Source: Tribonema minus (taxonomy: Eukaryota > Sar > Xanthophyceae > Tribonematales > Tribonemataceae). From it: a stretch of 64,000 nt of DNA. The position numbers and the translations under genes are program-made. Under the pieces are notes generated by a model. The model did no database searches. It had not been told where the DNA came from and was given only the letters and a program-made list of their open reading frames with translations. Numbering within the stretch: position 1 is the first letter of the stretch; each line of letters begins with the position of its first letter. The DNA is taken from positions 1 through 64,000 of the forward strand of contig JAFCMP010000529.1 of the NCBI GenBank assembly GCA_017506865.1, written 5' to 3'. This document shows positions 9,269 through 62,907 of the stretch, piece after piece.

Positions 9269-12200
9269 TCAGCTCCGATGCGCCTTGCTGGTGCGCTTGC
9301 GTCCCGGTATCCCGCAGTTGCCAACATAGACCATGATAGTCACGCTTGCCGTGTACAGCAGCCACAGCGCCGCCGCCTGCGTGCAGCGCAGCGCGCAAGG
9401 GCATGGACGGTGCAACTTGAATGAGAAACGTGACCGCTGAGATGAAGCGGATTTCTGGTTACAATATATTTCTAAGTATGCTCTTGTGGACGCCGTTGTT
9501 GAATTCGTTTTCAAATGTACATACTTCATAGTACTTCTATGCTGCGCAATAAGGCCACACGCAAGCTGCGCCGGACGGCCATTGCAGCCAGTCTTTTGCG
9601 CAGCTTCAATGGAAGCGAGAATCATTTCACACGTCCGACCTGTAGACCAGTGGAGCTGTGTCACGAGGCAACCTGTCGCGCGCTGCGTTGACGATCGGAA
9701 ACGATGCGAGTCTCTCAGCGACAAGCACACGCGACGCAAGATTCTCAACCGTTGCATACATTCGCCACAAGCGCTCACACACGCATGCAAACCTCACAAA
9801 CAAGTGCCAAGAACGATGCGCTTACACCAACGACCCTGGCACTCGACGTTGTTGCGCTGGGCGCTGCCTCAATAACGGCAGTTGCCACCAGGCATGGCCC
9901 AAACAGGAGCTACCGCAGTCGTGACACCAACACACCTCAGTGCTTGTTCAGCACAGCAGAATGATGGAAGTGGCAATCGCAGACGTGTCTGATGCTCATC
10001 CCAAGTGCCGCTGGCACGCTGGTCGTCATCATGAAGATGCGGATGGCGAGCGCTGATGCACCTGCCCGCTGCCCAGCGAACGCATCATGTCCAGGGCAGG
10101 AGCGTCCCACCAGCATCAACTTCAACATGCATTTGAGGAATGCAAACGACGGCGAGCGCTGACGCACCTGCCCACCGCTCAGCCCCAGCGTTGCCGGCGC
10201 GCTGGCCACGCTGCTGCCATGACACCGCTCGCAATCAGCCAGCTCATGCACACCACCAAGACAGCAACTTCAACATGCATTTGAAGATGCAAACGGCGAC
10301 GCACCTGCCCGCCGCTCAGCCGCAGCGCCGCCGCCATGATAGTGCTTACAACAAGCCAGTTCCCACCAACACGGAACTTCAACATGCATTTGAACAAAGC
10401 AAACCGGCGACGCACCTGCCCGCCGCTCAGCCCCAGCGCCGCCGTCGCGCTGGGCGCCGCTGCTGCCATGACACCGCTGACAACAAGCCAGTGCGTGCAT
10501 CACCAATACAGCAACTTCAACATGCATTTGGCAATGCAAACGGCGACGCACCTGCCCGCCGCTCAGACCCAGCGCCGCCGTCGCGCTGGGCGCCGCCGCC
10601 AGGACGGCGCTTGCAATGAGCCAGTACGTGCACGCGGCGGCGGCGTACGTGACCACCCACTGCATGACCCCCGCGCACGTGCTGACCCCCTTTGGGGGGT
10701 TCTCCAGGCCCCCCAGGAGGGACTCCCTGAGCGCTGCTGCAGCAACGCAGCGGTCGTGCTCGAGCTGCTCCTCGCTTGCTGCGGACTGCGAGCTGGCGTC
10801 GGATGGCTGCGCGGCAGGGAGTATGTTATTGAAGTTAGTCGCTGCAGCTTTGAGGGAGTGTGGGTGGGGGGGGGGGTCATGTGAGCATGGAGAGGATGAG
10901 GATCACCTTGTTGCTGCCCTTGGAGGGGTGCCGCGCGGCAGGAAGTATCGTGGTTGAAGTTATTCATTGCGTTTGAGAGGGAAAGGGCGAAGGGGCACGT
11001 GAGCATCGAGCGGATGAGCATCAGCTCGCTGCCGCCCTTCGAGGGGGGGGGGGGGGGGGGTCGTGGCTACTGTAGGGACACTGAGACTGCTGTTACAGCG
11101 GTGCAGCAACTGTGCGTGAACCACAGCCTGCTAGAAAGCCACGGCAGGACAGTGCTGGTCGGATACAGAGAAACATTGATAGCACCGCGTCACTGTCAGC
11201 ATCAGCCCGTTTCAGACACGAGGTGGGCAAATGAGGATCATGTAGATTGTCCCCCGCCATCTGGTTGCGGACGCCCACATTGCGGGGCGTCAACACATCT
11301 ACTTCAAAAAGAAGTAGTGAAAGTACCCAAGTAGCCTCTTTCCCCCCACGAACAATGAATGGCAACTGACGCCCACGGAACGGACGCCCGGTCCTATGCC
11401 GCGCGTACACCCACATGGCTACTAAAAGCATTACCTACCTCAACAGAAATTCAGACAACTCTATTCCCTCCTCTGTGCGTACGGGTGCGCAGTAGCGGAC
11501 ACAGCTCAGGGTCGCACGTACAGCCACGCAGCCATTTTATACTTGAAGCATCACCTACTTCAACACCTCCAACAACTCCTGCACCTCCTCTCCCAGGCGA
11601 ATGAGTGCGTGGTAGCGAAAACCCACAGTCCCAGGCCGCGCGTACAGCGCGCCGGCGCTTTACTTGCCTACTTCAATACTTTCAAGACTGTAATTGCCTA
11701 CTTGAATACTTGTCAACAACTCGTGTACCTCCTCCTCCACGCGAATGAGCGCGTGGTAGCGCATGCCCACGGTACCGGGCCGTGCGTACAGTGCGCCCGC
11801 GCTTTAAACTTGAAGCATTGCCTACTACAACACTTTCAATGACTGCAACTGCAATTGCCTACTTAAGACTTTCAGCAACTCCTGTACTCCTCCCACACGC
11901 GTATAAGCGCGTGGTACCGCACGCCCACGGTCCCGGGCCCCGCTTGCAGGCACGCAGCTGCGTCATACCCTACTTCGATACTTCCAACACGACCCCTGTA
12001 ATTGCCGACTTGCATACTCTCAACATCTCGTGTACCTCCTCCCCCATGCGCATGAGCAATGGTGACGGACGCCCACGATTTCGGGCCGCGTACAGTGCGC
12101 CGGTGCTTTATACTTCAAGTACTGCCTACTTCAACACTTTTGTACAATCTGTACAGACTGTACCTCCGCCCCCCACGCGTATGAGTGCGTGGTAGCGAAG

Positions 12201-15200
12201 GCCCACGGCCCCGGGCCGCGCGTACAGCGCGCCGGCGCTTTATACTTGAAGTACTGCCTACTTCAATACTTTCAATGACTGCAATTGCCTACTTCAACCT
12301 CATTAACGACGCCCGTACCTCCTCCCCCACGCGTATGAGCGCGTGGTAGCGCACGCCCACGGTCCCTGGCCGCGCGTACAGCGCCCCTGCGCTTTATACT
12401 TCAAGTACTGCCTACTTCAACACTTTTGTACACTCTGTACAGACTGTACCTCCTCCCCCACGCGTATGAGCGCGTGGTAGCGCACGCCCACAGTCCCCGG
12501 CCGCGCGTACAGCGCCCCTGCGCGCGCGGCGCGCGGCGGCCACAGCGCAAATGCCCCGTGGATGGTGAGCGGCAGCATGGGCCACCGCAGCTGCTGCGCG
12601 AGGTGGAAGGCGCCCTTCTTGAAGGGCCGCAGCTGCCCCGTGCGGCTGCGCGTCCCCTCCGGCGAGACCGCGAGCGAGTAGCCCACCCTGCGGGGGGCGC
12701 GCGCGTGCGGTGGGGGTAGGTATGCATGTGAGTGGGTGTGAAGAGAGGCGTTTTGGGTTAGGGTTCGTTCTAACCCTAGTCCTAGTCCACAGAGGCGCGC
12801 GGGGGGGGGGGGGGAGGGGGGGGGGGGTATGCATGTGAGTGCGAGTGAAGAGAGGCGTACCGGCCGGTTTGATTTGGAGTCCGTGTCACTGCCCGAGAGA
12901 CCTTGCGGCGCGCGCGTGTGCGGGGGTGCCACTTTCTCATGAAAACACGAGTACATCGATAACACGGCCTATGTGCGTGCGCGACGGCGTGTGAAGAAAG
13001 GCGTACCGGCCGGTGTGATGTGGAGTCCGTGTGTCGCTGCGGAGGTGCTTGAAATGCAGTTGAGCATAGCATGTGCTTCCATTTCATTTAAGCACGGCAC
13101 GGTCTACAGTACTGCTGTAGATGCCAGGTGTGTGCATGCGTTGCACACGAGAGCGTGGCACAGTGCGATGCCTGCCGCCGATGCCAGCGAGCGGGCACTG
13201 ATACGCACGGCATACAGGTACTTCAACAACGACGCATGCAACGACTTGCGGTGGGAGGTGGCACTCAAGTTCATAACCCGTCACGACGTTGTACCTCCGC
13301 ACCCTACGTACAGCTCATCCGCACCACACGGCTAGCGAAGCAGCCAGCAAGTGGCGCTCGCTGCACACATGCGTTTATGTACTTCTATATATGCTGCACA
13401 CATGCGTTCATGTACTTCTATATACATGTAGAGAGCACCACCATACATGATGTCCAAAGGCAACGAATCAGAAGATCGTAGAGCTCTAGGTGACAAGGTG
13501 TGGTTAGCCGCAAATGCTTTCCACCAATGACTGTGGTCGCTGCTGCTGCGGCAATCGGCCGCGAGCCAAACACAGATATATAGAGAGAGTGCACCACCGC
13601 CATACACGAGCGTTCTATTTGACGGCTAACCACACCTTGTCACCTGAAGCTCTACGATCTTTTGATTCGTTTTCATACACAATGTCCAATGCGCGCGACA
13701 GCCTCTTCTACCTTTGGCACTCCTCCTCGGCCGCTGCACGTGCACTTGTTTACACATGATGCAGAGAGCACCATTGACGGTATCCAACGTGCGTAAGAGC
13801 CTGAACCTTCAGCACATGTGCGTGAGATACTGTACCTTTGGCACTCCTCCCCTGCCGCAGTCATCGATGCCACCGCAGCGTCCCGCCGGCTCCTGTCGAT
13901 GGGCACGCACCCAAACGCCATCGCCAGCCACCCCAGGTACGGCACAGCAAAGATGGAGTGCTGCACGAGTCACGGCAAGTGGCGTCCCAGCGCGCGGCGG
14001 CGATGGAGGAGCGTTTGATGCACAGTCTGAACTTCAAGTGCAGCAGTGAAGTGACGGGCCTAATTTACGCCAGCCGCCCCAGGTATGGCACAGCAAAGAT
14101 GGAGTGCTGCGCGAGTCACGGCAAGCGGCGTCTCAGCGCCCGGCAATGCTGGAGGGAGCGCGTTGATGCATGGTCTGAACTTCAAGTGCAACAGGGGGGA
14201 GTGATGTGCCCTAACTTCACTCCAGCGTGGCCTGGCGGCCCACCGATGTGTGGCCTGAACTTCAAGTTCAGAAGTGGAGTGACGTGCCTACTTTCCAGTC
14301 TGCGGCGCCATCGCACATCAACCCGAGGGTTTACGCGGCGCTGTCACAATATTGAGGTCCCGTGCAGTGGCGAAGGCGGCATGAAGTAGAGGGCAGCAGC
14401 GCGTGGCGCGTCTGCTGCGGGGGGCGGGGTTGCCATGCGGCGACACGCGTACTTGCCTACATACCGTACCCAGAGCTAGTACGCATGGGCGGACCTTGCA
14501 GCGGAGTTCGGTCCTAATTTGAGAAAGACGAAGGTGACCATATGGGAACAAGGTGATCCCAGGGTGAACCAGCGGAAGGGCCCTTCCGGGGTCGCAACGC
14601 AGTGACACATGTACAGAGCACGCTTACATACATGTACCACACCGAGGGCTATTACGCATGCATGAACCTTGCAGCACCGTTCGGTCCTATTTTGAGAAAG
14701 GCGCGACGGTGACCACGCGGGAAAACGGGGTGATTGGAGGATGCACCAGCGGAAGGGCCCTTCCGAGGCTGCTGGTGTCTAGCAGACTGCAGTGGCCAAC
14801 TATGCACCGTTCGCATACCACGTTGTGTGTGCTGCACATCATGGCCATCACGCATGCAACTGAGCTGCAGTTACATCGGTGCAACTGCATACCTCACAGT
14901 TGCATTAGTGTAACTGCGCGCGCGTTAGTGACAGTTGAGTTGGTTGGTGGAATTGCGCAGTTACGTTGAGGTAACTGCGCATGGATGCAGTACAACTGCG
15001 TACCTTGACGATGGCCCTGAACCCGCATGGATGCGCCGATAGCATAATGAGTGGATCCAGGTTGCTGGCGAAGGCGAATAAGGCGAATGGGGGTCAAACA
15101 AGGGGAACAGGTGAACACGTATTCCAGGTGAAATGCGAGAAGGTCCGCTGTTGGTTGGTTGCGGCGATGGACCCTGGCGCACTGAGTCATGGGCAAAAAG

Positions 15201-25306: not shown

Positions 25307-25642
25307 AACTCGTGACGCGGCGTCCGCCCGCGGAACTTGCACGTCATGGCATACTGAACCTCTGCGTTGGGCTGCCGGCTGAAGCTGGCCTGCCAAACAC
25401 GCGAGACCTTTCCATACTGAACACCCATGCCTCGAGCGCTAAAAGCTTGCACACAGAGATCTTCTTGACTACTGTGGATATGGTGGTACTGTTTGACTCG
25501 TGGCCAATTGCTGCAGCAGCGGCGACCACAGTCATTGGTGGAAGGCACTTGCCGCTAACCATCCCTCGTCACGTCTTGAACTTCAACTTCACCTATTTAA
25601 CTTCAACTTTGGACACATCAGTGACGCTCCACAGAGCCCTGC

Positions 25643-27439: not shown

Positions 27440-28106
27440 ACAGGTGGTCCGGCTTGGCAGACCTACGTACCGTTGGACCACTGGCCACTCACCCTCTTCC
27501 CGCTTTCAGTACCCACACTCTTCTGGCGTGCATGGCTCAGATCGGTCGCCTTGGGCTTGCTGCCGCACCGCGCGAGGGGCGCCCTCAGTACGTATCATGG
27601 AGGTTCCCCTCAGCACCAACTTTGAGAGTGCAGGACTTGGGCAACAGCGCTCACCTTGGGCTGGCTGACGGGGCGCCAATGCAGTGCCCTCAGGAGGTAG
27701 GTATGAGGGTGCCATCAGTGCCTACATGCCTGAACAAAGCATCGCTCAACTCGCTCACCTTGAGCTTGCTGCCGGGCCGCGCAAGGGGGGTGTCAATGTT
27801 GTACGCTCAGTACGTAGGCATGAATGTACCCTCAGTGCCGACATACCCCAAAAAAGCATCGCTCAGATCGCTCGCCTTGGGCTTGCTGCCGAGCCGCGTG
27901 AGGGGCGTCGACGTAGTACCCTCAGTAGGTAGGTATGAGGGCGCTCTCCGTGCCTACATACCTCAACAAAGCATCGCTCAGGCCGCTCATCTTGGGCTTG
28001 CTGCCAAGCCATGCAAGGGGCGCCGATGCGTTGCCCCTCAGTAGGTAGGTATGAATGTACCCTCAGTGCATACATACCGTAGGGCAACATCGCTCAGAAC
28101 GCTCAC
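27440..28106 (-). repeat. Exon-end echo array after ABM-domain exon 28264-28107 (about 6 copies)
   Basis: The real exon ends by coding PLVRPGSKPK, then |GTGAGCG. Copies of ...CGGCAGCAAGCCCAAG|GTGAGCG lie at about 27987-28040, 27875-27930, 27763-27815, 27653-27700 and 27545-27600, giving a period of about 110 bp. Donor bases read GT in two of these copies, AT in one and GC in two. Each unit also shares TACCTACCTA..ATGTAGGCAC-type intron sequence. Conservation drops with distance from the exon. Confidence 0.88.
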
Positions 28107-29720
28107 CTTGGGCTTGCTGCCAGGCCGCACCAGGGGCGTCGATGTAGTGACGTCCAGCGTCTCGCACAGGTTGGTCATGGCCGGCGCGAGGCGCATGAAG
28201 TGGCGCGAGGCCCAGTGCGCCTGCTCTGCGGCCTCGTTGGCCCACTCGACCACCAGTTGATACCCTGCGGACAGGGGGGGAGGTGGGGGGGGGGGGGTCA
28301 GCTGCCATGCGTGATGGCGTGAGGAGGCGGCATGTAGCTGCTGCCCTGTGATGCAGCACGCAGACAAGTAGGTACTCGGAGCACTTGATGGCGTCATACG
28401 TAAGGAAAAGTGTGTGGGCTTCAGTCGATCCTGCAGCTGTGCACAGCTGGGTGTCGCTAGATGACCAAAGCTGAGCACGGACGTACCGGCACTGAATATG
28501 GCATCATATCTGTGTTGGCACATGATGGAGGCACACTGAATGGAGTGTACTTATGGTGTAGGAAACAGTCAAGCGATTGATGAAAGCGAAGCTTGCAGCG
28601 GTGCGCCGTCCAGTTGACACCAGCACCACAAGTGTTGGCCGCATTCTCACACAAAAAGGCCATTTAAAAAAAATGAGCTGCAGGGGCATGACCGGCAGAC
28701 ACAAGGGCAACTGGTCAATGTGTTCATTTCGCAACCGCGCCACCATTGTGCCGCTGTGCCGCTCTCACTCCGTGAGGACCTGACCAATGTGTTTGCATTG
28801 TCAGGCTGCGCAAGACCATTCTAGACCAATGCATCGCGCAGCAAAGAACGCGTGATTATGATGAAGAGCCACACGGCATCTGAAGCCTGCACTGCGCAGT
28901 CAACTGGCGATCATGCGAGACAGGAAAGTGGGTTGTGATAATATTGCGCCAGCAGAAATTGTGCATTGTCCTTGCAGCATGCTTACCGTCGATTGTGTTC
29001 TCAACTCGTGAGAACGAGTACGCCAAGCAGCCCCTCTCCTCCACTGCTGCTTCGCTGAGCTCCAGTGCCATGGCTTCCCAGCTGCAAAGGAAGCAGCAGT
29101 GAACAAGTCTCGCTAAATTCGAACAGGCTGTGAGGCATGAGACTACAGGTGCAAATTTGCATAGCCTGAAATTTAGGCGACAATTGGCTGCACAGGTCAT
29201 TGCGTTGGCGAGTACCCGGTAGTACCAGCAGCAACCAAAACGAGTCGTCAGCGACAGCTTTCCGGAATCACGCGTGAGACAACTCAGTCACCGGCTCAGA
29301 AACTGCTGCCACGCTGAGCATGAAACTACAAGGCCAGGGTAATCTAGATGTGGCTTACATTTTCTGATTCTTTGGAGGCACCCTCAGGCTGATGATAACT
29401 CTCTTGCTCACGCTCTCCAATTCTTCGGGATCCAGAACCTTGCCCGCATCCGCAGCAGCCTTGGCTGCGTTCAGGTCTATGGTGGGTACGGAGTCAGCTT
29501 CGGACGCCTGGAAGGTTCGACCAGGAAGAATGAACACCTGCTGTTGATCCTCCTCTGGCGGCTCGTTGCCTGCAGCCAGCGTAATACATGGCGAAAGGTT
29601 GGTAGCAGCAGCGACGTTGTGACTTGCACCCAGTGGTGGGAAGGCCAAGAAAGAGTAGACTTGGGGCAATTGCTGGAAAGCCAGCAAAGACAACACTGCG
29701 GCGTTGCACAACGTGATCAT
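28107..29720 (-). CDS. Plastid-targeted protein with an antibiotic-biosynthesis-monooxygenase (ABM)-like domain
   Basis: Exons 29720-29359, 29081-28987 and 28264-28107 join in phase (AT|C, G|GG). The start is the ATG at 29720, giving a signal peptide (ITLCNAAVLSLLAF) that ends near VYS|FLAF, typical of red-lineage plastid preproteins. After an acidic linker, a dimeric ferredoxin-like ABM domain spans about residues 105-190: VIISLRVPPKNQK, WEAMALELSEAAVEERGCLA, YQLVVEWANEAAEQAHWASR, HFMRLAPAM. Such domains occur in monooxygenases and in many small proteins of unknown reaction, so the reaction cannot be named. The 3' end is uncertain (see 26942-27241). The gene diverges from the pseudouridine synthase gene about 95 bp away. 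Confidence 0.8.
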
Positions 29721-32351: not shown

Positions 32352-35300
32352 ATGTCAAGAGTCATCCCAGTGCTGCGATCTTGCGTCGGCAGTGCGACAG
32401 TCTCAAGCCGATCCTCTCTGGTGCGGGGCCTTGCGACTCAAGGTGAGGTCAACGACCAAAGCATGTTTTTTTTGGCTGTGTCAGGATTCCTCCAGCATGT
32501 TTTGTCAGCCGGCAAGCTTCTTTGCGTGCGCTCTGCATCCCTATCTCGCTTTCAGTGCTGTCCTTCAGTGCACGCCGCTCCTGGTGTTGCTCCGCTCACG
32601 GTGGTGGTCATGCCGGCTGCACATTCCTGCTTTGTGCTGAGCACAATCCTATCTTGTGCTCCTGGCTGCTGATGCTGCTGCCACGCGACTGCAGGTACCA
32701 CTCCGCCGCAGTCTACTTCGTATGAGAAGATGAAGGCTGACAAGAGGTACGAGCCAGTCACGGAGGTTCCCGAGGTTGTGCTGCGCAACATGTCTGCTGA
32801 CACAGTGTTCAGCCCTGGGTTCAGCATTAAGGGCAGATCTAAGGCAGGGCGCGCATCATATCTGGTGAGTGTTGATGAACAGGGCAACAGCCGTCGTGCT
32901 CTGTTGTGTGTGGATGGGTACTCCGCAACAGCCACCTCAGTGAAGTTGAACTTGACTCTCGCGGTACCTTGAAGAATAGCTTGACGGTAGGCAAAGTACG
33001 TGATGCGCTTGAACAATCTGCAGTATGAACCTGTTTAGTCGCTGACTCCAACTGTGTATGCTCCGGACCAGCTGTGCTGTCTTGACCTGCTTTGGTGCTC
33101 TGAGCATGCCATGTGACGTTGCGCTGGCATTTTCACACCTGTGCACCTGCACTCATTATGCCCTTCTTATCATCTTTCCCTGTTACTGCTTGATACATGC
33201 ACATGTACGGCACTCCGTGTACATCTCCTTGTGCACGTCTTCTTTCACATGGTGTGGACATGCAAATGATGCACACCTCACCGCCCATGTACTCCAACAC
33301 CAGCAGTGGACAGCACACAGTTTTGCACAGAATCCGAGCCGTAGCAGCACACCGGACCCTTTTACTCCCCTGGGACCTATACAAAGTCGAGTCCATGATT
33401 ACAGCACACCATGTAGACTATGCTCATGTGCAATGTCCATTACACTGCAGGACACATGGTCTGATGCAGACTAGCTCGCTACATCGAATTAGACCCCCGA
33501 GAATGCACCAGACCTGGTCTCCTCTCAGACCTCTTAAACATTAGTCCACGAGTCTAGCGCACCATGTATGCCTATGTGCACCTTTTCATCACGTTGCAGG
33601 ACGTGCAAGCGACAACGATCACAGCACACCATGTATGCTGATGTTCACCCTTAAATCACATTCCAGGACATGCAAGCGACGACGCCGCTGGATCCGAGGG
33701 CGCTGGACGCAATGCTGCCGTGGATGATGGGTGGCTACGGCAACCCGCACTCGCGCACGCACAGCTACGGGTGGGAGGCGGAGGGGGCGGTGGAGGTGGC
33801 GCGCGGGCAGATCGCTGACCTCATTGGAGCGTCACCAAGAGAGGTGGGCAGTTGAAGTTTGTACTTGACCTCACTGGACCGTCACCAAGACAGATGGGCA
33901 GTGGAAGTTTGTAGTTGGTTTTGTCCTGGCGGCCACAAACCATGAGCGATGAGTGTTTCGGCATACAGAGCGGAGGTGACGCGCGTGCAGATCTGCTGAC
34001 CTGATTGGAGCGTCGCTGAGAGAGGTGGGCAGTTGAATTTTTTACTTGAAGTTGGTTGTGGACCTGGTGGTCACAGGAAATGGGCAGCGAGTGTTTTGGT
34101 GTGCAGAGCGGAGGTGGAGCATGCAAACAGGTGCTGGGTTCCGTGGATACTGCCGGTAGATATCGAATCGTGACGGGTCCTCATGGGTGCACTTCGACTC
34201 CAAAGCTAAGTAGATTTGCCAGCGTGTATATTTCTAAGGGCATTTGGGGCCTTATTGCAGTGTTGTCAACAACAGTCCAATTCAAGTTTGCGCTGAAAAC
34301 CATGGTTGCGGTGGTGTGCTCGGTGGTGTGCTCAAGCGCAGTTTTGGCCGCAGATGTCATCAGCGCTCATCCAGGATATCATGTAGCGCAGCATTATACT
34401 TCAGAAGAAGGGTGTCGAAGCAGGTTTCTTCACCTCAGCATTACATCATCAAATAGTATCGTGCTTGCGTGTACGTACCTTAATGAAGTTACAGAGGTGG
34501 CATATGACGGGTACTGTTATGGTGAAGCACCACGACGCCATGGCGCCAGAGTCGCACCAGTCAGGTGTCGGTGTAATGGCTGTGGGGCCTTGTTGACAGC
34601 TGCTGTGATGTTGAGCATCAGATAGGCTTGTGTCAGATGCTGTAACCCGTGGACACCACAGCTACTGTGCTGTAGGTACTGCGGGTTCGGGATTGGCAGG
34701 AAAACGCGCATGCCAGCATCCCATCAGCAAATAGTAACATGCTGGTGCTCATGAATGTTGAAGCACAGAGGGGGGCGGTGATAGACATCTGTGATGCAGG
34801 GGCTGCAGGAGAGTGGTGGTGGCTTGTGCCTCTGTTGGTGGCTCTGGCGCACCAGCTGCATGGGTTCCGACGCATGAAATGGTATGCTGTCTGACAGTTG
34901 ACCAACATCAAGGATGCTGAGCTTTTATTTGAGGTCATGCGCAAGATTCTAAGGCCCGCCATACTTGCTTGCACTGATGATGTGATGTTTTTTTTTTTTT
35001 TCGAAGTCAGATGTCGCTTTGCATGGCTGTATACACATTGAGCCAGCAATCACCATGCTGCATTCATCAACTAAAGGCTCCACAAGTATGTTGTTGGAAG
35101 ACCTCATGACGTGCAACAACTTCACATAATTTTACACTGAAAAGTAGGCAAGAAAGACCTGAAGCAAACTCAACAACGAAGTGTCATCACAACAGCGTGG
35201 TGCCCTTGCATTCCCGCTGCTTTACTGCTACTTCAAGACTACAGCTTCAGAGTAAGTGATGTGTAGTAAACGGTGGCTGGACATACATAGCTTGTTTCAG

Positions 35301-38300
35301 CCAAAGCCTGCGCTCTCATGCAGGCTGTGCTCCTACAGCTGTCGGCCATCATGTGAGAGAATCAGACCCCTGTCTAGTCCATATTTGTTTTCTGCGCAGT
35401 GCATTCTAACTTCTTTCCGACATCTGTTCTCCACCTCTGTTCTGCATGCAGATCATTTTCACATCTGGCGCTACAGAGAGCAACAACATGTCCGTCAAGG
35501 GAGTGGCGCGCTTCTATGCATCTCGCAAGGTGTGTGCACATTGGTCCACCTGTTCATTGTGAAGTTACACTTTTAGCCCTCACCTGTAACATTAATGTGT
35601 CACTGTAGATATAAAAGGAGTTGTGGACAACACAGTCGCTGCTCATGTTCAATGTTGAAGTTACCCCTAGCTCACTCGCCTCAGCAGTATTGCTAGTCAC
35701 AATGCGAGAGGTGCAATGGTGACAATGACGCCCAAGCTTGTGTGTTGAGAGTGTCGTATTTCAAGCATGTTGTGTCGTGGCTGGCTGTGCAATGCATGCG
35801 CGCCTATGCAGTCGTTGACGCCAGGTGGTCGCACTGAGCTGAGCACTGTTGCATCATGGTCAAGCCGCTGCACTGAGTCTGATTACAAGTTTGTGGAACA
35901 CAGCGGTCGGCATGGCTCAGTGGTGCAACACTGCCACAGCTGCTGCGTGCGACGCAGTGCATGCAGTGCAACTGCCAGTCCTCTTGCTTTTGACTCACGT
36001 GTGCGTCATACGGTCATTGATGTTGAGGACGCGTGTCTGTGGTGTAGCATTGCCACAGCTGCAGCGTTTGTGCACCGCAATGTGCAACTGTCAGTCTCCA
36101 CGCTTTTGACACATGTGCGCGCAGTATAATCATTGATACTGCTGTCAGTCCCCACGCGTTTGAATCATGTGTGCGCCATATGTTCGTTGGTGCTGAGGAT
36201 GCTTGTCTGTCATGCCGCGCACACTATTGTGATTGTGCAGAAGCACTTGATCACGACACAGACGGAGCACAAGTGCGTGCTGGACAGCTGCAGAGCCATG
36301 GAGAAGGAGGGCTATGAGGTATGTAGGTAAATATGTTTTTATGTGTGTGTATTGATGATATGTGCTGTCCGTTGTATGTATACAAGTGTGTGTATATGAT
36401 GGTACATGTATGTACAAGGTATGATCGCGGCGTAGATCACACTGCGTCAGTACACCGTGGCCGCACAACCCGCTGAGATGATAACTCCAAGCGCGCAGTG
36501 GCAGCAACTAGTTTAGATGTTCTCTGACTGCACCTGTTCCCTTCTTCTCGATTCTGAAAGACAATGTCGTCAGGTTTTCAAAGCTCAGCATGCGCTCGTC
36601 TGCATGTCATGCGCCGTTTCTGAAGTGGTTTGTAATTGAATTGAAGTTGTTGAGTGACTCATTTGTCATCTGCGAATAGTTGGCAACGAACGGCGTGCGC
36701 ATCCAGCACTCTTGCAACTTCACAATGCTGCATATCATCAATTCTGCTAAATCCTCTGCTCATCCGCAACTTCATCTTCAACACTGCGCGCCCGTCACAT
36801 ACTTGCCGGTCCAGTGTGTCACAACAGGTTGAGCATTTAGCCGATTGTTCAAGAAAAGCAGTCAGCGATGATGTGGCTACCATCACTCTTGGACCTCCAC
36901 AACCCCGAAGGGTCTTGTAAGATCTCTGCTTGTAAAATCTCTGCTGCTCATATGCAACTTCATGCAACTTCATCTTCAACACTGCGCGCAGGTCACATAC
37001 CTGCCGGTCCAAACCAATGGTCTCATAGACATGGCGGAGCTGGAAAGTGCAATACGGCCGGACACGGCACTGGTCAGCGTCATGGCAGTCAACAATGAAA
37101 TCGGCGTCATTCAGCCCATCAAGGTACGTGCATGGGCGCTATACCCGTAGGTATACTGTGCAGGGTCAATATGCTGTTCATGCACAAGCGGTGTTTATGC
37201 CAGCGTCATGGCAGTCAACAACGAAATCGGTGTCATTCAGCCCATCGAGGTGCGCGCATGGGCGCTATACTTGTATACTCTGCAGTGGCGGCATGCTGTG
37301 TATGCACAAGCGATGTCCGTGCCAGGTATTCGTTCTTGTGAAGCGCTGCATTCCTGAAGTCACTTGTCAGTTTGCCGCAGGCACTTGTGCCTATTGTTGA
37401 TGCTCCAGTGGATGATTGCTTCTTGTTCACGGTGGCTGATGGCTGATGTTTCAGTATTTACTAGTCTGTGGATGGTAGCTGCATTTTTACACCAAACGCA
37501 GACCAGATGTATGCTTGTGGCGTTGTTGTGTAGCGGCGACTTTTTTGAATGGACTGGCTGTTGCTCGTGGCAATGTTGCTTCATGACATTTGTACAATGC
37601 CGTAGCTTTGCAACTTTGGGTTAGGGTTAGGTTTAGGGTAAAATTACAGCGCCCGCTCCATTCGTCCTGCTGTGCCTACTTTGGTCGGCGCTTGTGATGG
37701 CGCACTGCTCTGGGACCTGTAGTGTGTAGCAGCATGTTTGAATACGTTACGGAGTAGCCAACTGCAATCGACATCGTCCCAGATCGATTTGCAAGCGTCA
37801 CAGACTGTGAAGCAATGGCTTGCTTGCTTGCTTGCTAGTCCTATTTGTGCTAGGTTATACATGATGTCTGTGGTTGATAGGCGCTTGCCACGGCCATTCT
37901 ACGATGGAGCTCATGGACGGTTTTTACTGTGCATTGTGCGCTTGCAGGAGATTGGAGCGCTCTGCCGCGCCAGGAAGGTCTTCTTCCACAGCGACATGGC
38001 GCAGATGCTGGGCAAGCTGCGCATCAACGTCGACGACATGAACGTCGACTTGGTCAGGTGCGACACGCCTGTGCAATAGCGCCCACATGTTACACTTTGA
38101 ATGACAAGCTCCCCATCAACGTTGACGACATGAACGTCGACTTGGTCAGGTGTGACACAGTAGCGCAACAGCGCCCACATGTTACACTTTGCATAACAAG
38201 CTACAAGCTGCCCATCAACGTCAATGACATGAGTGTTGACTGAGTCAGGTGCGAAACAGTAGCTTTATAGCGCACACATGTCATACTTCGCGTTATAGCA

Positions 38301-41300
38301 CAGGGCAATGGTCACCACATATTCGTCATCGAGCCATGTCACCCACATGGCACAGATGCTGGGCAAGCTGCCCTGATGATCGACGTCGGCGATGTCAGCG
38401 TCGACTTGGTCAGCTGTGGAACAGTAGCTTAGTAACGCCGGCATGTTATACTTCAACTTATCACAAGGCTGTGTATGGTCAGCGCATCATTGTCAGCGAG
38501 CCGTGTACACGTCATTGGCTGCGGTTTTGCAGCGTCGTGGTCAGTGCTGATGTTAGCTCAACTGCGTCAGTGCAACATTGGAGCAGTCATACTTCTGAAG
38601 TATGCTTCTTTGAAGAAGACAATTGGCTGCAGTCAGCAGTGCTCAGCTTAGTTAGCGACCGCCAGCGGACAGTTGCACAGCGCCTCTGAACGCAATGCTG
38701 CGCCCACACCGCCATGCTTGCATCATGCAAAGCTCTCATATTGATTGCTGCGAGCCTTCCTTAGGCCTGATACCACCTGCTCAGGGTCTGCCATGCTTAC
38801 CACCTGCTGCCTTGGTGCTCACGCATCATGCTGCCCTCGCGACTTGTCTCAAATCCTGCAGTCTTAGCAGCCACAAAGTGTACGGGCCGAAGGGAGTCGG
38901 CGCGTTGTATGTGAGGCGGCGGCCGCGTGTGCGGCTGGAGCCGGTGTTCAGTGGCGGCGGCCAGGAGCGCGGGCTGCGCAGGTACAGTGCCAATATTTGA
39001 AGTTGGCGGTTGAAGTTATTCATCAGAGTTTGTCGTGAATTTTGTTGATGTCAAGTTTTGTGCGGGTGGAGCCGGTGTTCAGTGGCGGCTTGAGCGAGGG
39101 CTGTGCCAGGTATCACAGAGTTGAAGTTGTTTGTTGAACTTTTTTGGTGCAAGTTGTGCGGATAGAGCCGGCGTTCAGCGGCGGCGGCCAAGAGCGGGGG
39201 CTGCGCCGGTACAGTACCAAAAACTTCAGGTTGGCCACTGAAGTTCATTGGTGCCAAGTTTGTGCGGCTAGAGCCGGTGTTCAACGGCGGCTGGAGAGAG
39301 GGCGGTGCCAGGTACCGCATAGTTGAAGTTAGGGATTGAACTTTTCTGGTGCAAGTTGTGCGGCTGGAGCCAGTGTTCAGCGGAGGCCAGGGGAGGGGGC
39401 CGCACAGGCACTCACGACGTTGATTATCAGCCATCTTCACTTCATGAAACTCAAGTATATCTGTAGTTGGCTTTGAGCCTGCAGCAGCAACAGGCACCGT
39501 TCACTGCGCATCAAAAGTGACTGCCTTCGTTGGAGGCCTATGAGTGCGCCTTCAGGCATAGTCTCCTGCTCCTTGGCACCCAGTGAGGCTGTTGACGCGC
39601 ATTGTACAACACACATGTTGCTGTGAGAATGGTCAGCAAATCGCGTTGTGCAGCTAATGTGAAGCACAGCAACCAACCAAAAACTTAGACTCACCCGGCA
39701 CGCAGCCTTATGCGTAAGATGTTCTTTGTAGCTGTGCTGTAAACAGTCAGCCTCGCCACCACTGCAGCGACACCCTATTCTCCTCCCCGACATAGCGCCC
39801 TTGTATGTTTGATGTTGAAGCTCAGTATGCAGTACATGTCTGTATGTGCCGCAGATATGAAATGTGTCGCCTGATTGTAAAATTCACCAACTTGAGCGGC
39901 GCATGTGCACATCACAATCACGCTGCCAAGGCAGCTGCACCAATTCGGAGCGCCTCCTGCTGACAGTTCCATGCCTTGTAACTGCCATGCAGCGGCACCC
40001 TGCCGCACAACCTGTGCGTCGGCTTTGGCGCGGCGTGCGACGTTGCGGCCCAGGAGATGGAGAGGGATGCCAAGTGGGTGGGCTACCTGTCAAAGCGGAT
40101 GCTAGACGCAATCACCGCACGTGTGCCAGAGGTGAGAGGACACTTTGATAATTGCAGCTTAGTATTAAAAATCTTTTTAACAAATAATGAACAAGTGGCT
40201 ACCTGTCAAAGCGGATGCTCGACGCAATCACCGCACGCGTGCCTGTGGTGAGCTGCTGGAGACGTTGTGATATTTGCAGCACTGCACGCGTGCCTGAGGG
40301 TGAGGGTTAGGGGGCATGCACAGCACTGTTGCAAGGAGTGGTGCTGCTACAGCAGGTGTAGTGAAGCAGCAGAGAGAGTAATCATGTGAATAGATAAATG
40401 GGGGTTTGTCAAAGCGCATGCTCGACACCATCACCGCACGCGTGCCTGAGGTGAGCTGGTAGAGACATTACAGTAGCTGCAACTTAAGATTGAAATCACT
40501 GCACGCGAGCGTGAGGTGGCGAGGGTTTGGGGGCATGCATAGCAATGTTGCAAGGAGCGGTGCTACCGCAAGCAGGTGTAGCGAAGCAGCAGAGAGAGTA
40601 AACAAGTGAATAAACAAGTGGGCTACCTGTCAAAGCGCATGCTCGACACAATCACTGCATGCGTGCCAGAGGTGAGCTGCTGGAGACATTTCCAGTATTG
40701 CAGCTGAGTATTCAAAATCACCGCATGTGATGTAAGTTCTGAGAGGCATGCACACCTCCGCCTCAAGAAGCGGTGCTGCTACAAGCCGATGTAGTGAAGC
40801 AGCAGAGATGGTGTGGTGGTTTGCGATGAGAGAGTGCACAAGTGGGTACCTGTCGCAGTGGATGCTCAACGCAATCACTGCGCGCATGCTGAAGGTGAGT
40901 TCTTGGTGGTCTGCAGGGCACTGTGCCGGCGTACAGTGTGCTGAAGTATGCGTTACTGATACTCCAGTTTTTGTTCAGGCCACTCCGCCGCGTCATTAGT
41001 TCAATATGCGCTCGCAGCAGCATTGCCAACACCGCTTCTGCTCAATGAATCATGCCTGCATTCATGCCCGTTCAAGGCAGCAACTGTTGCAATGCGCACT
41101 GCAGGCATATTCTCTGCTTGTCATTTCTCACATCGCAGCGCTCAGCATTGGCCGCTTTTGTGCACCAGCACGGCTGCGTTGAGCGTCATCGGGCGCCTGG
41201 ATTGCTCACCGCCCACACGAATGCATGCATTTGACAACCGACGTCGAACTGGTGCCCTATACGAAGAAGCATGGTCAGTAGTGGTGCATGCTACGTGCAT

Positions 41301-43200
41301 GCAGGACAGGTGCATACGAAGCGGGGCGAATACAAGCAAGAGCACACGCCACTGAGCAATCTACGCCAATTAGCGCTGCATCGCCATCTCGCTGCCCTTT
41401 ACCGCCGCACGCAGTGCCGCAGCCATAGGCACTGTCCCTCCAGCGCATGATTTCACTAGGTACCTTTGCTCAAACTTCACCATGTTGTATTATTTCATTC
41501 TGCACTATTCTGCAGGTGGTGCTCAACGGCGACCCGACCGCGCGCTACAGCGGCAACCTCAACTTGAGCTTTGCGTACGTGGAGGGCGAGAGCCTGCTGA
41601 TGGCGCTCAAGAACATAGCTGTGAGCAGCGGCTCTGCGTGCACGAGCGCGTCGCTGGAGCCGAGCTACGTGCTGCGCGCTATCGGCGTTCAGGAGGACCT
41701 GGCCCACACGAGCATCCGCTTTGGGATCGGCCGTTTCACCACGCAGCAAGAGGTGAGGCAGGGGTGTTCTCTACTTTGAAGTTTATACTTTGAGATGGGT
41801 TTACATACACACAGGTCTACTCCAATTTCCCTCTTCAAGTCAAGCCTACACGCGAGCATCCGCTTTGGGATAGGCCGCTTCACCATGCAGCAAGAGGTGG
41901 GGCAGGGGTGTTGGCTGGCCCTGAAGCATACAAAATTCTGGGATTGAATACCATATACAAGCACACAGATCTGCTTCGATGATTTCCGTCAGTATATTCA
42001 AGCCTACACACTAGCATCCGCTTTGGCGTTAGCCGCTTCACCACGCAGCAAGAAGTGAGGCAGGGGTGTTGATTGGCCCACAGGCCAATCCTGCAGGTAC
42101 AATTGAGGACAATTGCACATTGTTGGGAGTCTGCATGCGTAGGGGGGTGTTCAAGGTTTATCACAAGCACTAATTGATAGCTTGATCACAGTCAGTATCT
42201 GATAGCTTGATCACAGTTATCAACTGATAGCTCGATGCACCATACTGTCAAGGCATGGTGCAATATCATAATGCTGGACATTCAAGTCCCTGTAGATACT
42301 AGGAAGCGGCGTTACTGAAGCTCTGCTGTGGTCTGTGAAAGTTTTACATGGCGCAGTTGCTGTTTGTTGAATACTTCTCCACACATAGCACACGCCACAG
42401 ACACATTTATGGGGCTCTCTGTTGTGGTTCCATCTTAGTCGCCTGCGAATCCGACACTGATATACCGTTTGCTTACGGTCTGTTGCCGCGCATGCATTTA
42501 TAACACAAACTTGAAAGGGGCGCCTGCTGACAGGTCCCATTACCTCCCCCCCCCCCCCCCCCCCCCCCATGCGACTCCACTCTGCATATGCATGAAATAT
42601 ATATTTTTGTGGTGCTCATCTTACAGTCTGCCTTGACAGTCAGATATGGTCCTCATGACGCGCCTGCCCCTCCTTGCTGTTATTGTCGTCCACCGTTATG
42701 GTCAATTTTCTGTATCCTTGTGTTTGTGTCTTGATGCACTCTAAAGTGTATTGCATATTGCCCTGTAGCCTGTCGATGTACCGTCCGCAGGCGGACCCTG
42801 CAGACAGACAACATCCACTGTACGACCACAGATGCCTGTACAACAGATTCCTGTATGCTTCACCAGATTCCTGTTTATTGTTATGTGCAGATGATTTCTC
42901 GTGCAAGCCCCCCTTGACTACTTTGGCGTATGCCCACCCACTGCACGCTTTGCAGCTGCAAGCAAGCAAATGTACCGATGCTGTCACTAGAGCTTGCAGC
43001 GTGCTGTTGACGCCCATGCACTTCCAAATTTTGACGACTTAGCATTTTCATTTTCTTGTCCCATGTTTTGGCAGGTGGACTTTGCAGTTGATCTTCTGGC
43101 GGAGCACGTGGAGCGCCTGCGCAGCATGAGTCCCCTCTGGGAGCTCGTCCAAGAGGGCGTAGATCTCAAGACCATTCAGTGGTCGCAGGACGCGCACTGA
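32352..43200 (+). CDS. NFS1: Cysteine desulfurase, mitochondrial type (NFS1), 11 exons
   Basis: PLP enzyme that takes sulfur from cysteine for Fe-S cluster assembly and tRNA thiolation. Exons: 32352-32442, 32695-32864, 33667-33843, 35452-35529, 36241-36318, 36992-37123, 37948-38057, 38862-38981, 39993-40131, 41516-41752, 43075-43200. All phases agree; 485 residues. The N-terminus ([20 protein letters not shown]) looks like a mitochondrial presequence. Key parts: [35 protein letters not shown] with His182, [23 protein letters not shown] with PLP Lys284, [36 protein letters not shown] with active-site Cys407, and C-terminal [12 protein letters not shown]. Family-typical length and complete. Departures: SHK where most have GHK, and SDMAQ for TDAAQ. 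Introns after exons 3, 6, 7, 8, 9 and 10 contain echoes of the preceding exon end. Confidence 0.97.
33585..33666 (+). repeat. NFS1: Acceptor-side echo upstream of NFS1 exon 3
   Basis: The real exon starts TTCCAG|GACATGCAAGCGAC. About 70 bp upstream is TTGCAGGACGTGCAAGCGAC followed by AACGATCACAGCACACC, with the same flanking CACCATGTATG spacer. It is a copied acceptor plus exon start located 5' of the exon. Confidence 0.72.
33844..34132 (+). repeat. NFS1: Exon-end echoes after NFS1 exon 3 (2 copies)
   Basis: The exon ends GACCTCATTGGAGCGTCACC AAGAGAG|GTGGGCAGTTGAAG. Copies lie at 33866-33905 (donor changed to AT) and 33985-34040 (donor GT kept), each with the following GGGCAGT(T/G)GAA intron start. 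Period is about 60-120 bp. The GTTTCGGCATACAGAGCGGA stretch also repeats (33955, 34094). Confidence 0.82.
36725..36991 (+). repeat. NFS1: Acceptor-side echo upstream of NFS1 exon 6
   Basis: The real boundary reads CAACACTGCGCGCAG|GTCACATACCTGCCGG. At 36779-36813 a copy reads CAACACTGCGCGCCCGTCAC then ATACTTGCCGGTCCAG, about 200 bp upstream, including CTTCATCTTCAACAC before it. The acceptor AG is lost in the copy. Confidence 0.8.
37124..37320 (+). repeat. NFS1: Exon-end echo after NFS1 exon 6 (1 copy)
   Basis: A 129-bp tandem duplication places a second copy of the last 45 coding bases at about 37206-37250, with 42 of 45 bases identical. Two of the three differences are synonymous. The donor GT and the next intron bases (GCATGGGCGCTATAC) are also copied. 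Confidence 0.88.
38058..38420 (+). repeat. NFS1: Exon-end echoes after NFS1 exon 7 (3 copies)
   Basis: The exon ends ...AACGTCGACTTGGTCAG|GTGCGACAC. Copies at about 38102-38155 and 38207-38252, and a longer one at 38345-38412 that starts at the CACATGGCACAGATGCTGGG part of the exon. Donors read GTGTGACA, GTGCGAAA and CTGTGGAA. Intron starts (AGCGCCCACATGTTACACTT) are copied too. Confidence 0.88.
38982..39420 (+). repeat. NFS1: Exon-end echoes after NFS1 exon 8 (4 copies)
   Basis: The exon end GTGCGGCTGGAGCCGGTGTT..GGGCTGCGCAG|GTACAGTGCC recurs at about 39060-39113, 39156-39218, 39260-39313 and 39356-39410, with a period of about 100 bp. The first three copies carry a GTATC/GTACAG/GTACC donor and the last reads GCACTC. 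Each is followed by TTGAAGTT. Confidence 0.9.
40132..40910 (+). repeat. NFS1: Exon-end echoes after NFS1 exon 9 (4 main copies)
   Basis: Copies of GGGCTACCTGTCAAAGCGGA..GTGCC.GAG|GTGAG lie at about 40196-40255, 40404-40460, 40618-40680 and 40840-40905, plus small fragments near 40280 and 40498. The unit is about 210 bp and includes an intronic part (GGGGGCATGCA..GTGTAGTGAAGCAGCAGAGA). In the first copy three of four differences from the exon are synonymous. Confidence 0.9.
41753..42080 (+). repeat. NFS1: Exon-end echoes after NFS1 exon 10 (2 copies)
   Basis: The end AGCATCCGCTTTGGGATCGG..ACCACGCAGCAAGAG|GTGAGGCAGGGGTGTT recurs at about 41849-41915 and 42010-42070, period about 155 bp. Donors are GTGGGG and GTGAGG. 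Several differences fall at third codon positions. Confidence 0.9.
42541..42569 (+). repeat. Poly-C tract in NFS1 intron 10
   Basis: A run of nearly 30 C. Similar long C or G runs occur at 11043-11060, 12798-12828, 22429-22441 and 63857-63876. Confidence 0.9.
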
Positions 43201-44198
43201 CGCACTTGCAGTAGACGCTCCGACGACTCGACAATATGGCACTTGAAGTAGACGCGCACGTCACCGCTTGCGGTTTGTATGAGTGAGTGGCTCACTGGCC
43301 GCGCTGCACTGCGTTTTGGGCAAGAGCAGCGCGGCATGTATCGCTTTGCACCTCTAGTGCTGCCTGTTTGCATCATGGCAATGCATATGCTGGTGCTGGA
43401 CGGGCTGGCAGTACTGATGCGGCGCCATTGGCACCAGGCCAGACAGTTAATGCACACATGGTACTTCAAGAAGTTTGCTTCATTTCGCCTGGTTGCCCTG
43501 TGAGTATGCGTTGCGTGCTCGCAAACGTAGTGGTTGCATCTCAAGCATGTACGCAAAGGACTTTTAGACACTTCATTCAGCATGACTTGAGTTCAAAACG
43601 CATGGCATGCAGTAGTGGAGCAGCAGGGTGATCAACTTGACAGTGTAGAATTTGCTCAAGATTGAGTCCCCTCTGGGAGCTCGTCCAAGAGTGCGTAGAT
43701 CTCAAGACCATTCAGTGGTCGCAGGACGCGCACTGACGCACTTGCAGTAGACGCTCCGACGACTCGACAATATGGCACTTGAAGTAGACGCGCACGTCAC
43801 CGCTTGCGGTTTGTATGAGTGAGTGGCTCACTGGCCGCGCTGCACTGCATTTTGGGCAAGAGCAGCGCGGCATGTATCGCTTTGCACCTCTAGTGCTGCC
43901 TGTTTGCATCATGGCAATGCATATGCTGGTGCTGGACGGGCTAGCAGTACTGATGCGGCGCCATTGGCACCAGGCCAGACAGTTAATGCACACATGGTAC
44001 TTCAAGAAGTTTGCTTCATTTCGCCTGGTTGCCCTGTAAGTATGCGTTGCGTGCTCGCAAACGTAGTGGTTGCATCTCAAGCATGTACGCAAAGGACTTT
44101 TAGACACTTCATTCAGCATGACTTGAGTTCAAAACACATGGCATGCAGTAGTGGAGCAGCAGGGTGATCAACTTGACAGTGTAGAATTTGCTCAAGAT
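43127..44198 (+). repeat. NFS1: 536-bp tandem duplication of the NFS1 3' end
   Basis: Copies 43127-43662 and 43663-44198 differ at only a handful of positions. The unit begins inside the last exon at TGAGTCCCCTCTGG, includes the C-terminal 25 codons and stop, and runs into 3' flanking DNA. TGAG at the junction is possible microhomology. The second copy carries one base change in the copied codons (GAGGGC to GAGTGC). It has no acceptor of its own, so it is not a usable exon. Confidence 0.95.
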
Positions 44199-44968: not shown

Positions 44969-44981
44969 GTACCAGTCCACA
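44969..44981. repeat. Target site duplication, left copy
   Basis: GTACCAGTCCACA, identical to 46500-46512. It directly precedes the truncated 5' end of the retrotransposon. Confidence 0.9.
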
Positions 44982-46499
44982 GGCGGCGCCGCAACCGTGC
45001 CGGCTGCGACAGCGGCAATGGCGGTGGCAGCGGCCAATGCGGCAGGTGCTGCACCAACACCTGCGGCAGCAGCAACACCACTGGCAGCAGCAGCAACGGC
45101 AGGCGGCACAGCTGCAGCACCAGCGCACGCAGCAGCGGCAGCCGTCAATGCAGGCGCTGCGCGTTCCACACCAGCAATGCTACAAGGCGCAGCAGCAGCA
45201 GAGGTGGCGCGCCTGCCCCTCATGCGGACGATCGCCACAGCTGCCACATCTCTACGTGCAGCAACAGGTGACAAGCTGGAACATATACTGCCACCAGCGC
45301 TAACGCCACTGCAGCAGCAACCACCTACGCAGCAGCCGCCGCTGCGGCCGACAGCAGGTGGTGGCACTGGTGCGGATGCTGCTTGCGTACTTGACGCCAG
45401 TGCTCTGCAGTTGCAGTGTAGCCTGAAGCGCCCCAATCAGAGTGCGCTTGCAGATGCCGTCGCTACCGAGCTTGCAGATAAGGTGGAGGCGGACCTGCAA
45501 CAGCTGCCGCAGGGCACGCAACGCACGCAAGCACTTGCTCGATTCCGGTCGCAGCGCCACATGCACTCGATCGGCATGGCATTCCTCAACGAGCCCATGT
45601 ACTCCACAACGGCTTCGTTCGATGGCCTATCCTGGCAGCTGGCCGTCAAACGCGCCATCGGAGTAGAGGAGCAGACGGCAGGCTGCAAGCTGTGCGGGAA
45701 GTCGCCGGGCGGCACCCTGCATGCACGGCTGTGTCAAGCGCCACGCGTCAAGGCGCACGACACCATTGTCCACAATAGCGTCAAGAGGGCCACGCAGCGC
45801 CTCCTGCGGCAATACCTCAAAACGGGACTGGTGGACGAGGACTACACGCCGTTTCTGGGGTCCGCCGGGCCGCCGGGGAGTCGCAGGATGGACATCGTGC
45901 TGCCTGCCGACGCCTTCCCGGTGACCGGCTACGACGACCCGACACGCCACCTACCGCTCATGGTGGACGTTACCTGCTTCGAGGCACAGGTGGCGTCGCG
46001 GGCGGCGAAGACTGCAGCAGACCCCGAGCGATGCTGCCGCGACCAAGAGGCCGCCAAGACTACCCACTATTCTGGTCATTATGATCAGAATTGCTACAAA
46101 CTTGCCACATTGGCAATAGGGTCATTTGGCAGCATCGGGGAGCAGGGGCGGAAGCTGCTGGAGGCTGTGGCGACGGAGTATGCCAGCAGGATGTCAGTGC
46201 CCGGAGGAGCGCGCCCTAAAGCTCTCAAGGGCATCGCCCTGGCGCGCTTACGCTCGGCACTGTCGGCAGCGCTCCACATGGCGTACTCTGGCCGTGTCAT
46301 GACACACATGGCAGAATCCAGGGGGGGGGGGCACATGGAGGAGGACGTAGGGGAGGACCCTGAGATGCCATTTGGCGGCGGCGGCGTTTGAGTGGTTGTC
46401 GTTGCGACACTTTCAGACTGTAATACGACATGTAGATTCCTTACAGCTAGATGCCAATCATCTGGGCTTTTTCGCGCCCTGAGCGAGAATTAATAAAAA
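44982..46499 (+). mobile_element. 5'-truncated non-LTR retrotransposon copy with restriction-like endonuclease domain
   Basis: An open frame (44952-46391, entering from the flank) encodes an Ala-rich stretch and then the C-terminal half of a LINE protein. It has a CCHC knuckle CKLCGKSPGGTLHARLC, VHNSVKRATQRLL, then RRMDIVLP and LMVDVTCFEAQ, the Asp-bearing parts of a PD-(D/E)XK (restriction-like) endonuclease. The element ends about 110 bp after the stop in AATTAATAAAAA. A perfect 13-bp target site duplication (44969-44981 and 46500-46512) proves insertion by target-primed reverse transcription with 5' truncation. The frame has no stop or frameshift, so the insertion is young. It supplies the 3' half missing from the copy at 1-4630, but whether they are one family needs alignment of an intact copy. 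Confidence 0.92.
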
Positions 46500-58280: not shown

Positions 58281-58289
58281 AAGACCCTC

Positions 58290-62420: not shown

Positions 62421-62454
62421 AGAGCAACTACCCAAACCTTTTGAGATCATGTTC

Positions 62455-62783
62455 TCACACCCACGTACCTGGAGCATAGCGCGCCCAGCTGCCACATGGC
62501 TGGACAGGGCCTGCCACATGGCTCGACAGGCTCAACAGGCCCTGCTGGCGAGTATACACACCCAGCCTTTCAAACAACATATTCACGCCTACATACCTGC
62601 AGCATGGCGTGCTGCGCAGTCACGTCGCTCGGCAGCCCCTGATGGTGCGCGTGCGAGTAACCCAGACTTCAAACAACATACCCATACCTACGTACCTGGA
62701 GCATAGTGCGCTCTGTGGCCACGTCGCTCGACAGCCCCTGCCGGCGAGTATACCTACCAAAACTCGTTATCATACCTACATAC
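62455..62783 (-). repeat. Exon-end echo array after exon 62907-62784 (3 copies)
   Basis: In transcript sense the exon end ...GAGCGCGCCATGCTCTAG|GTATGTAGG recurs with donors at about 62695, 62597 and 62468 (..CTATGCTCCAG|GTACGTAGG, ..CATGCTGCAG|GTATGTAGG, ..TATGCTCCAG|GTACGTGGG). Period is about 90-130 bp. The GT donor is kept in all three. Confidence 0.82.
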
Positions 62784-62907
62784 CTAGAGCATGGCGCGCT
62801 CCACAACCACGTCGCTCAACAGGCACTGCCGACGCGCGTCGGCGGCGGTGATGGCGGCGTGCAGGTCAGCCACCGCGCGCTCCTCTGACTGTCGCTGCGC
62901 GCGCAGC
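62784..62907 (-). CDS. Candidate exon of an unrecognised coiled-coil-like protein
   Basis: Starts after GATTTCAG| and encodes LRAQRQSEERAVADLHAAIT then AADARRQCLLSDVVVERAML. The last codon before the donor |GTATGT is TAG, the only in-frame stop; the other two frames are closed. Copies of this exon end just downstream read CAG at the same place. It is either a terminal exon or a Gln-to-stop change. Charged, Ala-rich helix; no family assigned. Confidence 0.45.

Follow-up and report, generated by a model that had tools for sequence, protein, structure and literature searches.

Exon edges and their splice sites recur as tandem copies in adjacent introns of the yellow-green alga Tribonema minus

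The edges of exons, each with its splice donor or acceptor, recur as tandem copies in the adjoining introns of the yellow-green alga Tribonema minus. We confirmed these exon-edge echoes in a 64,000-nucleotide stretch of contig JAFCMP010000529.1 (the window; contig C526, one of the 554 that make up a genome of 158,181,000 bases) and found them again in a gene family picked without regard to repeats, and the pattern is widespread, uneven and two-sided. Very probably, the arrays are local tandem duplications that straddle exon edges and stay silent because the splice sites next to the exon are the ones spliced. An earlier reading of the window's letters (the original prediction) had described copies of the preceding exon's end and donor in several genes.

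The arrays were mapped in the gene for NFS1, the mitochondrial cysteine desulfurase. Its translation aligns without gaps to residues 83-482 of human NFS1 and is 98% identical to the eukprot protein P0001, with 92% of the query covered. The gene model and its repeats, all on the forward strand, are as follows.

32352..43200, forward: NFS1, 11 exons, GT-AG introns, gap-free alignment to human NFS1
32352-32442, 32695-32864, 33667-33843, 35452-35529, 36241-36318 and 36992-37123, forward: exons 1-6
37948-38057, 38862-38981, 39993-40131, 41516-41752 and 43075-43200, forward: exons 7-11
33792..34116, forward: exon-3 end and donor, then two copies in intron 3 (z 20)
37075..37325, forward: exon-6 end and donor, then one head-to-tail copy in intron 6 (z 34)
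37994..38506, forward: exon-7 end and donor, then three copies in intron 7 (z 29)
38928..39411, forward: exon-8 end and donor, then four copies in intron 8 (z 27)
40078..40899, forward: exon-9 end and donor, then four copies in intron 9 (z 35)
41705..42079, forward: exon-10 end and donor, then two copies in intron 10 (z 33)
33556..33684, forward: acceptor-side echo taking in the exon-3 acceptor and 18 coding bases from the exon start, AG retained (z 5)
36766..37011, forward: acceptor-side echo of the start of exon 6 with its acceptor, CC in place of AG (z 12)
35917..36210, forward: intron-4 tandem array, purely intronic, no exon letters
43127..44198, forward: 536-bp tandem duplication at the stop codon, 5 differences between the copies

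When 50-mers from exon ends and starts were scored against the flanking introns, echoes of exon ends turned up in the intron that follows for 6 of the 10 introns (3, 6, 7, 8, 9 and 10; z = 20 to 35), and echoes of exon starts in the intron that precedes for 2 of the 10 (intron 2, z 5; intron 5, z 12). The remaining four introns gave no exon-end echo (z ≤1.6), and the wrong-side controls, ends against upstream and starts against downstream introns, were null throughout (z ≤2.1). Interior exon windows rose in 3 of 45 tests, in exons 3, 7 and 8, whose ends bear arrays. A sliding baseline showed an echo at 17.8% of gene positions, and the 6 of 10 donors lie above it (circular-shift p 0.007). In intron 8 the copy at 39058 resembles that at 39261 and the copy at 39155 resembles the exon; the array looks as if a two-copy unit had been duplicated.

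Similar arrays were found in an acyltransferase gene, an ABM-domain gene and a locus at 62.8 kb, all on the reverse strand.

11510..12523, reverse: acyltransferase exon ending at 12450, end and donor, then six copies
10100..10640, reverse: acyltransferase exon ending at 10552, end and donor, then at least three copies
13709..13858, reverse: acyltransferase exon ending at 13836, with one short end-and-donor copy at 13709-13734
13922..14294, reverse: acceptor side of the acyltransferase exon beginning at 13960, at least one acceptor-and-start copy plus a further partial repeat
10806..11046, reverse: tandem duplication of about 124 bp, which by our reading may span a short putative acyltransferase intron and the edges of both exons
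27500..28150, reverse: ABM-domain gene, exon ending at 28107, end and donor, then five copies
62440..62840, reverse: locus at 62.8 kb, three copies of a donor-like block, splice model putative

Copies were present at 3/4 acyltransferase donors, 1/3 acyltransferase acceptors and 1/3 ABM donors; the donors of a gene that we take to be RluB-type (0/3) and of a subtilase gene (0/2) had no echoes. The acyltransferase, ABM and pseudouridine-synthase composites exceeded their Pfam cut-offs, as did the subtilase pieces. Taking all supportable splice sites of the window, at a score of at least 30 (reached by unrelated pairs in 0.23% of trials), we found echoes at 10 of 22 donors and 2 of 20 acceptors, a count that excludes the NFS1 intron-2 acceptor echo, which scores 26. 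The original prediction of exon-end copies in the NFS1, acyltransferase and ABM genes was confirmed. At 62.8 kb three copies of a donor-like block are present; the letters CTCTAG at the presumed end of the exon put a TAG in frame, in the reading frame used, which leaves the splice model putative. The original prediction gave 35-75 coding bases and periods of 60-210 bp; we measured exon portions of about 20 to over 70 bases and distances of 50 to about 220 bases between neighbouring copies, and its maximum of eight copies gave way to a count of 1 to 6 per exon end in the window.

We then turned to the PF00118 chaperonin family, picked as conserved and multi-exon and not for repeats. Its 56 exon matches were grouped into ten loci, of which eight were taken, with 30 introns modelled; the loci on C51 and C544 (8 rows) were left out, and among the remaining 48 rows we took two, L029 3815-3958 and L032 5568-5678, to be echo copies. 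Junctions were chosen by script from profile matches (P0241 matches for CCT-theta), reading frame and splice consensus. Stretches in which exons had gone undetected were passed over, the adjacent exon pair L035 6088/6882 yielded no junction, and two low-scoring junctions, L031 5372 and L033 3933, were both echo-negative. Subunit names other than theta are presumed from the sequence; the best match to the CCT-theta gene is a Tribonema minus protein with 97% identity along the entire query. An echo of the preceding exon's end was found in 8/30 introns, an echo of the next exon's start also in 8/30, and either kind in 13/30. The original prediction had named coincidence in a generally repetitive genome as the alternative; outside the window, exon ends matched their own intron in those 8 of 30 cases, the introns of other genes in 0/750 pairings (with ends only as queries) and the wrong side in 0/30, and exon middles rose in 1/30, in an exon that has a long stretch of its start copied. 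Its account of duplications straddling exon ends and leaving rows of decoy donors is well supported, except that the arrays are not specific to exon ends, starts being copied as often in the chaperonin genes and sometimes in the window.

Positive chaperonin introns lay on five of the six sampled contigs (C5, C135, C235, C279 and C516); the sixth, C511, contributed one intron. Three introns carried both kinds of echo (L029 4698-5332, L032 1028-3334 and L032 6576-7642). Otherwise the two kinds occurred apart: donor-array introns had no next-exon-start echo in 6/6 NFS1 and 5/8 chaperonin cases, and acceptor-array introns no preceding-exon-end echo in 2/2 and 5/8. We dropped a donor-only model, which had been explained by a rule of first donor and first acceptor. 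Window donors do exceed acceptors in echoes (Fisher p 0.017), but the chaperonin set shows no donor bias, and the window genes had moreover been flagged for donor arrays.

In none of the eight chaperonin loci does an array take in a modelled exon completely, so the copies carry one exon edge only; survival of just those duplications that keep the exon intact would give this result. It also bears on the idea that these are arrays of mutually exclusive or alternative exons. The copies do hold coding letters and one splice site, as such exons might, but with a single edge apiece, and with stops or frameshifts in some, we regard that idea as very improbable. Still less credible is an origin in mobile elements or introners that brought the repeats into the introns. 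A retroelement-like reading frame with a weak reverse-transcriptase match and the over-represented 8-mer TTGAAGTT could be cited for it; against it, the units stand head to tail and derive from the adjacent exon, the 0/750 result showing none of the sharing among introns of different genes that defines introners. Within the window, self-comparison at E 1e-3 likewise gave no match among the NFS1, acyltransferase and ABM arrays.

The proteins indicate which sites are used. P0001 crosses NFS1 junctions 1 to 9, and P0241 crosses the CCT-theta junctions, without any copied segment, indicating that exon-proximal donors and acceptors make these proteins despite intact copies between them. Use of the exon-proximal site on both sides is what exon definition predicts; a first-acceptor rule would pick upstream decoys. 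P0001, which is labelled isoform i2, follows the expected reading only as far as exon 10 and then closes with a brief alternative tail, possibly through intron retention or a different strain sequence. A search of the tail against the window gave no convincing match; a likeness to letters past the last intron-10 copy, seen by back-translation only, was not used.

Copies decay with distance from the exon. Identity to the exon dropped with distance in 14 of 16 arrays of at least two copies from the window and the chaperonin genes (9/11 donor-side, 5/5 acceptor-side), and the nearest copy was the best match in 10 of 16, with about 5 expected; the original prediction that the nearest copies are best preserved thus holds as a trend. 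Among NFS1 and chaperonin introns, GT was kept in 27 of 32 alignable donor copies and AG in 19 of 21 acceptor copies, at exon-part identities of 0.89 and 0.927, respectively, so that the loss of copied sites is about what divergence under neutral decay alone would leave. In a set of NFS1 and ABM donor copies GT was present in 24/30, one copy in NFS1 intron 3 having AT. Mismatches in this set by codon position were 28/311, 27/313 and 64/314 (9.0, 8.6 and 20.4%), and in NFS1 and chaperonin donor copies 9.8, 7.5 and 15.6%. This roughly two-fold excess at third positions fits free copies beside an exon drifting at synonymous sites. NFS1 exon 7 reads KLRINV in the window, and P0001 and the first two copies read KLPINV; the copies keep what is probably the older letter, so the intron-7 array probably predates the change in the exon.

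These figures also bear on whether the copies are kept for a function, as decoy sites that bind U1 or other splice factors, as a block to premature polyadenylation, or in regulated alternative splicing. Most copied splice sites are intact, and the P0001 tail hints that transcripts straying into intron 10 may exist. However, GT and AG are lost about as copy divergence predicts, copies decay with distance, and both copy number and presence vary strongly among introns and genes. We consider a retained function unlikely.

The evidence is best accommodated by duplications straddling exon edges. In the window, units 50 to about 220 bp apart would each have spanned an edge; a duplication running from the exon interior to the outside, or the reverse, would leave one complete edge in place and put the other copy in the intron. 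With the exon-proximal donor and acceptor spliced, copies would stay out of the messenger RNA and decay about neutrally, and repeated duplication near the exon would leave older copies deeper, so that introns lengthen and identity falls with distance. Birth may have occurred by microhomology-mediated template switching or end joining, and amplification by unequal exchange or slippage, while exon definition would be the reason that intact decoys are ignored. The joints of units lie head to tail inside exons. We also count for this explanation the near-identical 536-bp duplication at the NFS1 stop codon, which starts inside exon 11, 74 bases short of where the stop codon ends. At four of its five differences the first copy has G and the second A, and its breakpoints, as we read the sequence, have 3-4 letters in common; either a recent event or an error of assembly could account for it. 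Its geometry is that of an exon-edge array, yet no donor is involved, and the mutation as such therefore does not require a link with splicing.

A further possibility is that tandem duplication falls at random over introns and their flanks, and that edges appear special only because the constrained exon copy stays recognisable longer. It differs from the reading above only in where duplications are born, so our confidences in the two are not exclusive. In a 200-kb sample taken in regular steps on three contigs, which were chosen as known to exist and were not a random draw, tandem arrays cover 17% of the bases (32% in 22,377 bases of chaperonin intron), and the array at 35917-36210 is purely intronic; both suit random placement, as does the number of edge arrays without CCT-theta, 12/25 against 9.0 expected (p 0.12). 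Conversely, exon-edge overlaps of 15 bases or more occur in 20 of the 33 arrays of the eight chaperonin loci, where permutation gives a mean of 13 (p 0.003); this count is lowered by the many exons undetected in some loci. In CCT-theta alone all eight arrays touch an edge, against 4.0 expected (p 0.007); one exon start of that gene has five upstream copies. With exon-derived letters masked, NFS1 still shows 4 donor, 2 acceptor and 1 internal array at E 1e-3. The identity gradient modestly favours exon edges as preferred birth sites over longer visibility, and the permutation test favours them only with CCT-theta included. An exon-edge preference is thus suggested; a strong one, for which 20/33 had looked decisive before CCT-theta was left out, we no longer claim. 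Random birth is a serious candidate, though we incline somewhat away from it.

Several observations weigh against duplication at edges followed by free decay. Echoes are uneven: CCT-theta, on C135, holds 6 of the 13 positive chaperonin introns, three of the eight loci (L031, L033 and L034) have none among 10 modelled introns, and the RluB-type and subtilase genes have none. Acceptor copies (from L029, L032, L035, L036 and window introns 2 and 5) mismatch by codon position at 20/373, 10/368 and 50/362 (5.4, 2.7 and 13.8%), a third-position excess over the 30/741 at positions 1 and 2 that is more than free decay predicts. A pooled MAFFT alignment gave copy-to-copy identities of 1909/2409 for exon-derived and 1821/2613 for intron-derived letters; in local alignments the two parts differ little, and the 1:2 divergence ratio from the pooled alignment, not being robust to this, was not used. 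Finally, splicing was judged from proteins, of which P0241 is annotated and P0001 transcript-derived, with the species unstated.

Tandem repeats have been tied to introns before. Human introns reportedly include some from tandem arrays, going by the title of a 2007 study by Zhuo, and Gao and Lynch in 2009 are said, again by title, to have tied internal gene duplication to intron origin. A potato RNA-dependent RNA polymerase gene, in the portion of the report available, shows that a duplicated stretch can cross an intron-exon border (PMC4974935). The cases in the accessible parts of Hellsten 2011, PMC4974935 and PMC3443670 share with the alga a tandem duplication beside splice signals, but there a new intron arises from the duplicated segment, whereas in the alga existing introns lengthen and the copied site goes unused.

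The original prediction knew of no description of such arrays; however, the pattern has been described in birds. The available text of PMC12954441 (Genome Biol Evol 2026) reports sequence stuttering in introns of genes on the dot chromosomes of chickens. One form of it is exon stuttering: a lateral exon portion, together with its donor or acceptor, is copied through the adjacent intron. It was found in 236 introns of 115 genes; dot chromosomes account for 190 of these introns, and the screen puts it at 3.4% of dot-chromosome introns. It is reported in birds, with gerbils as data not shown; a search for exon stuttering in the accessible literature from 2024 on found no further paper. As far as that text goes, the two systems are alike in having imperfect tandem blocks of tens to hundreds of bases in introns, with coding exons intact. 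In birds the exon parts measure 20-187 bp, the median being 36 bp, and in the alga about 20 to over 70 bp; copies number 1 to 44 in birds and 1 to 8 in the alga (window and chaperonin genes); and prevalence, by different criteria, is 3.4% of dot-chromosome introns against 13 of 30 sampled introns. The avian setting is GC-rich dot chromosomes, the place where the phenomenon was found and no part of its definition, whereas the alga shows it on five of six sampled contigs and in the window, at 57% GC (0.569 in the 200-kb sample). Intron-length variation among individuals is given as a main avian feature; the alga is known here from one assembly. In the alga, introns are locally repetitive, and exon edge and splice site are copied to the adjacent intron and not elsewhere, the other-gene control having run exon ends and no exon starts. 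On the avian text available, the Tribonema arrays match exon stuttering in anatomy, not in chromosomal setting, and in a distant lineage, the stramenopiles.

Exon stuttering in an unrelated eukaryote, on several contigs, means that special chromosomes are not needed. If the same process operates in birds and in a yellow-green alga, it would be a general way, taken repeatedly, in which introns become long, and would offer a natural experiment in how splice sites are chosen. A newly born copy of a site shares exon and intron context with the real site, so only position can guide the spliceosome; the arrays are thus a ready-made test of splicing. Gene prediction in such genomes must handle rows of intact decoy sites. 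Tribonema minus is an alga in which to ask how introns grow, and a transformation paper for it exists (PMC7139823).

Other features of the window were recorded. The best 120 of 456 matches in a protein search with the acyltransferase have at most 49% identity, and a search of viral contigs, a set from which near genomes may be absent, gave no match. Long retroelement-like open reading frames lie at 1145-4630 (reverse strand) and 44952-46391 (forward strand); one has a reverse-transcriptase match below the curated cut-off, and the second, without a Pfam match, looks related to the first by eye. An inverted dispersed duplication, 5668-7935 and 47011-49131, with pieces 66-86% identical, overlaps the subtilase gene at 47-48 kb and is possibly a second subtilase copy or pseudogene. 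A short dispersed repeat at 13459-13677, 21777-21841, 25478-25572 and 54239-54385, one copy of which has inverted arms separated by about 155 bases, resembles a small non-autonomous transposon. The 8-mer TTGAAGTT occurs at 50 window sites (both strands) against 1.66 expected from shuffles, most densely at 58.3-59.0 kb; across the 200-kb sample its frequency is about 24 per 64 kb. It was rejected as a breakpoint signal for the duplications, the arrays of NFS1 introns 6, 7 and 9 and of ABM holding no such 8-mer. By our count from a 7-mer list, it is mostly sense-oriented in the NFS1 and acyltransferase genes.

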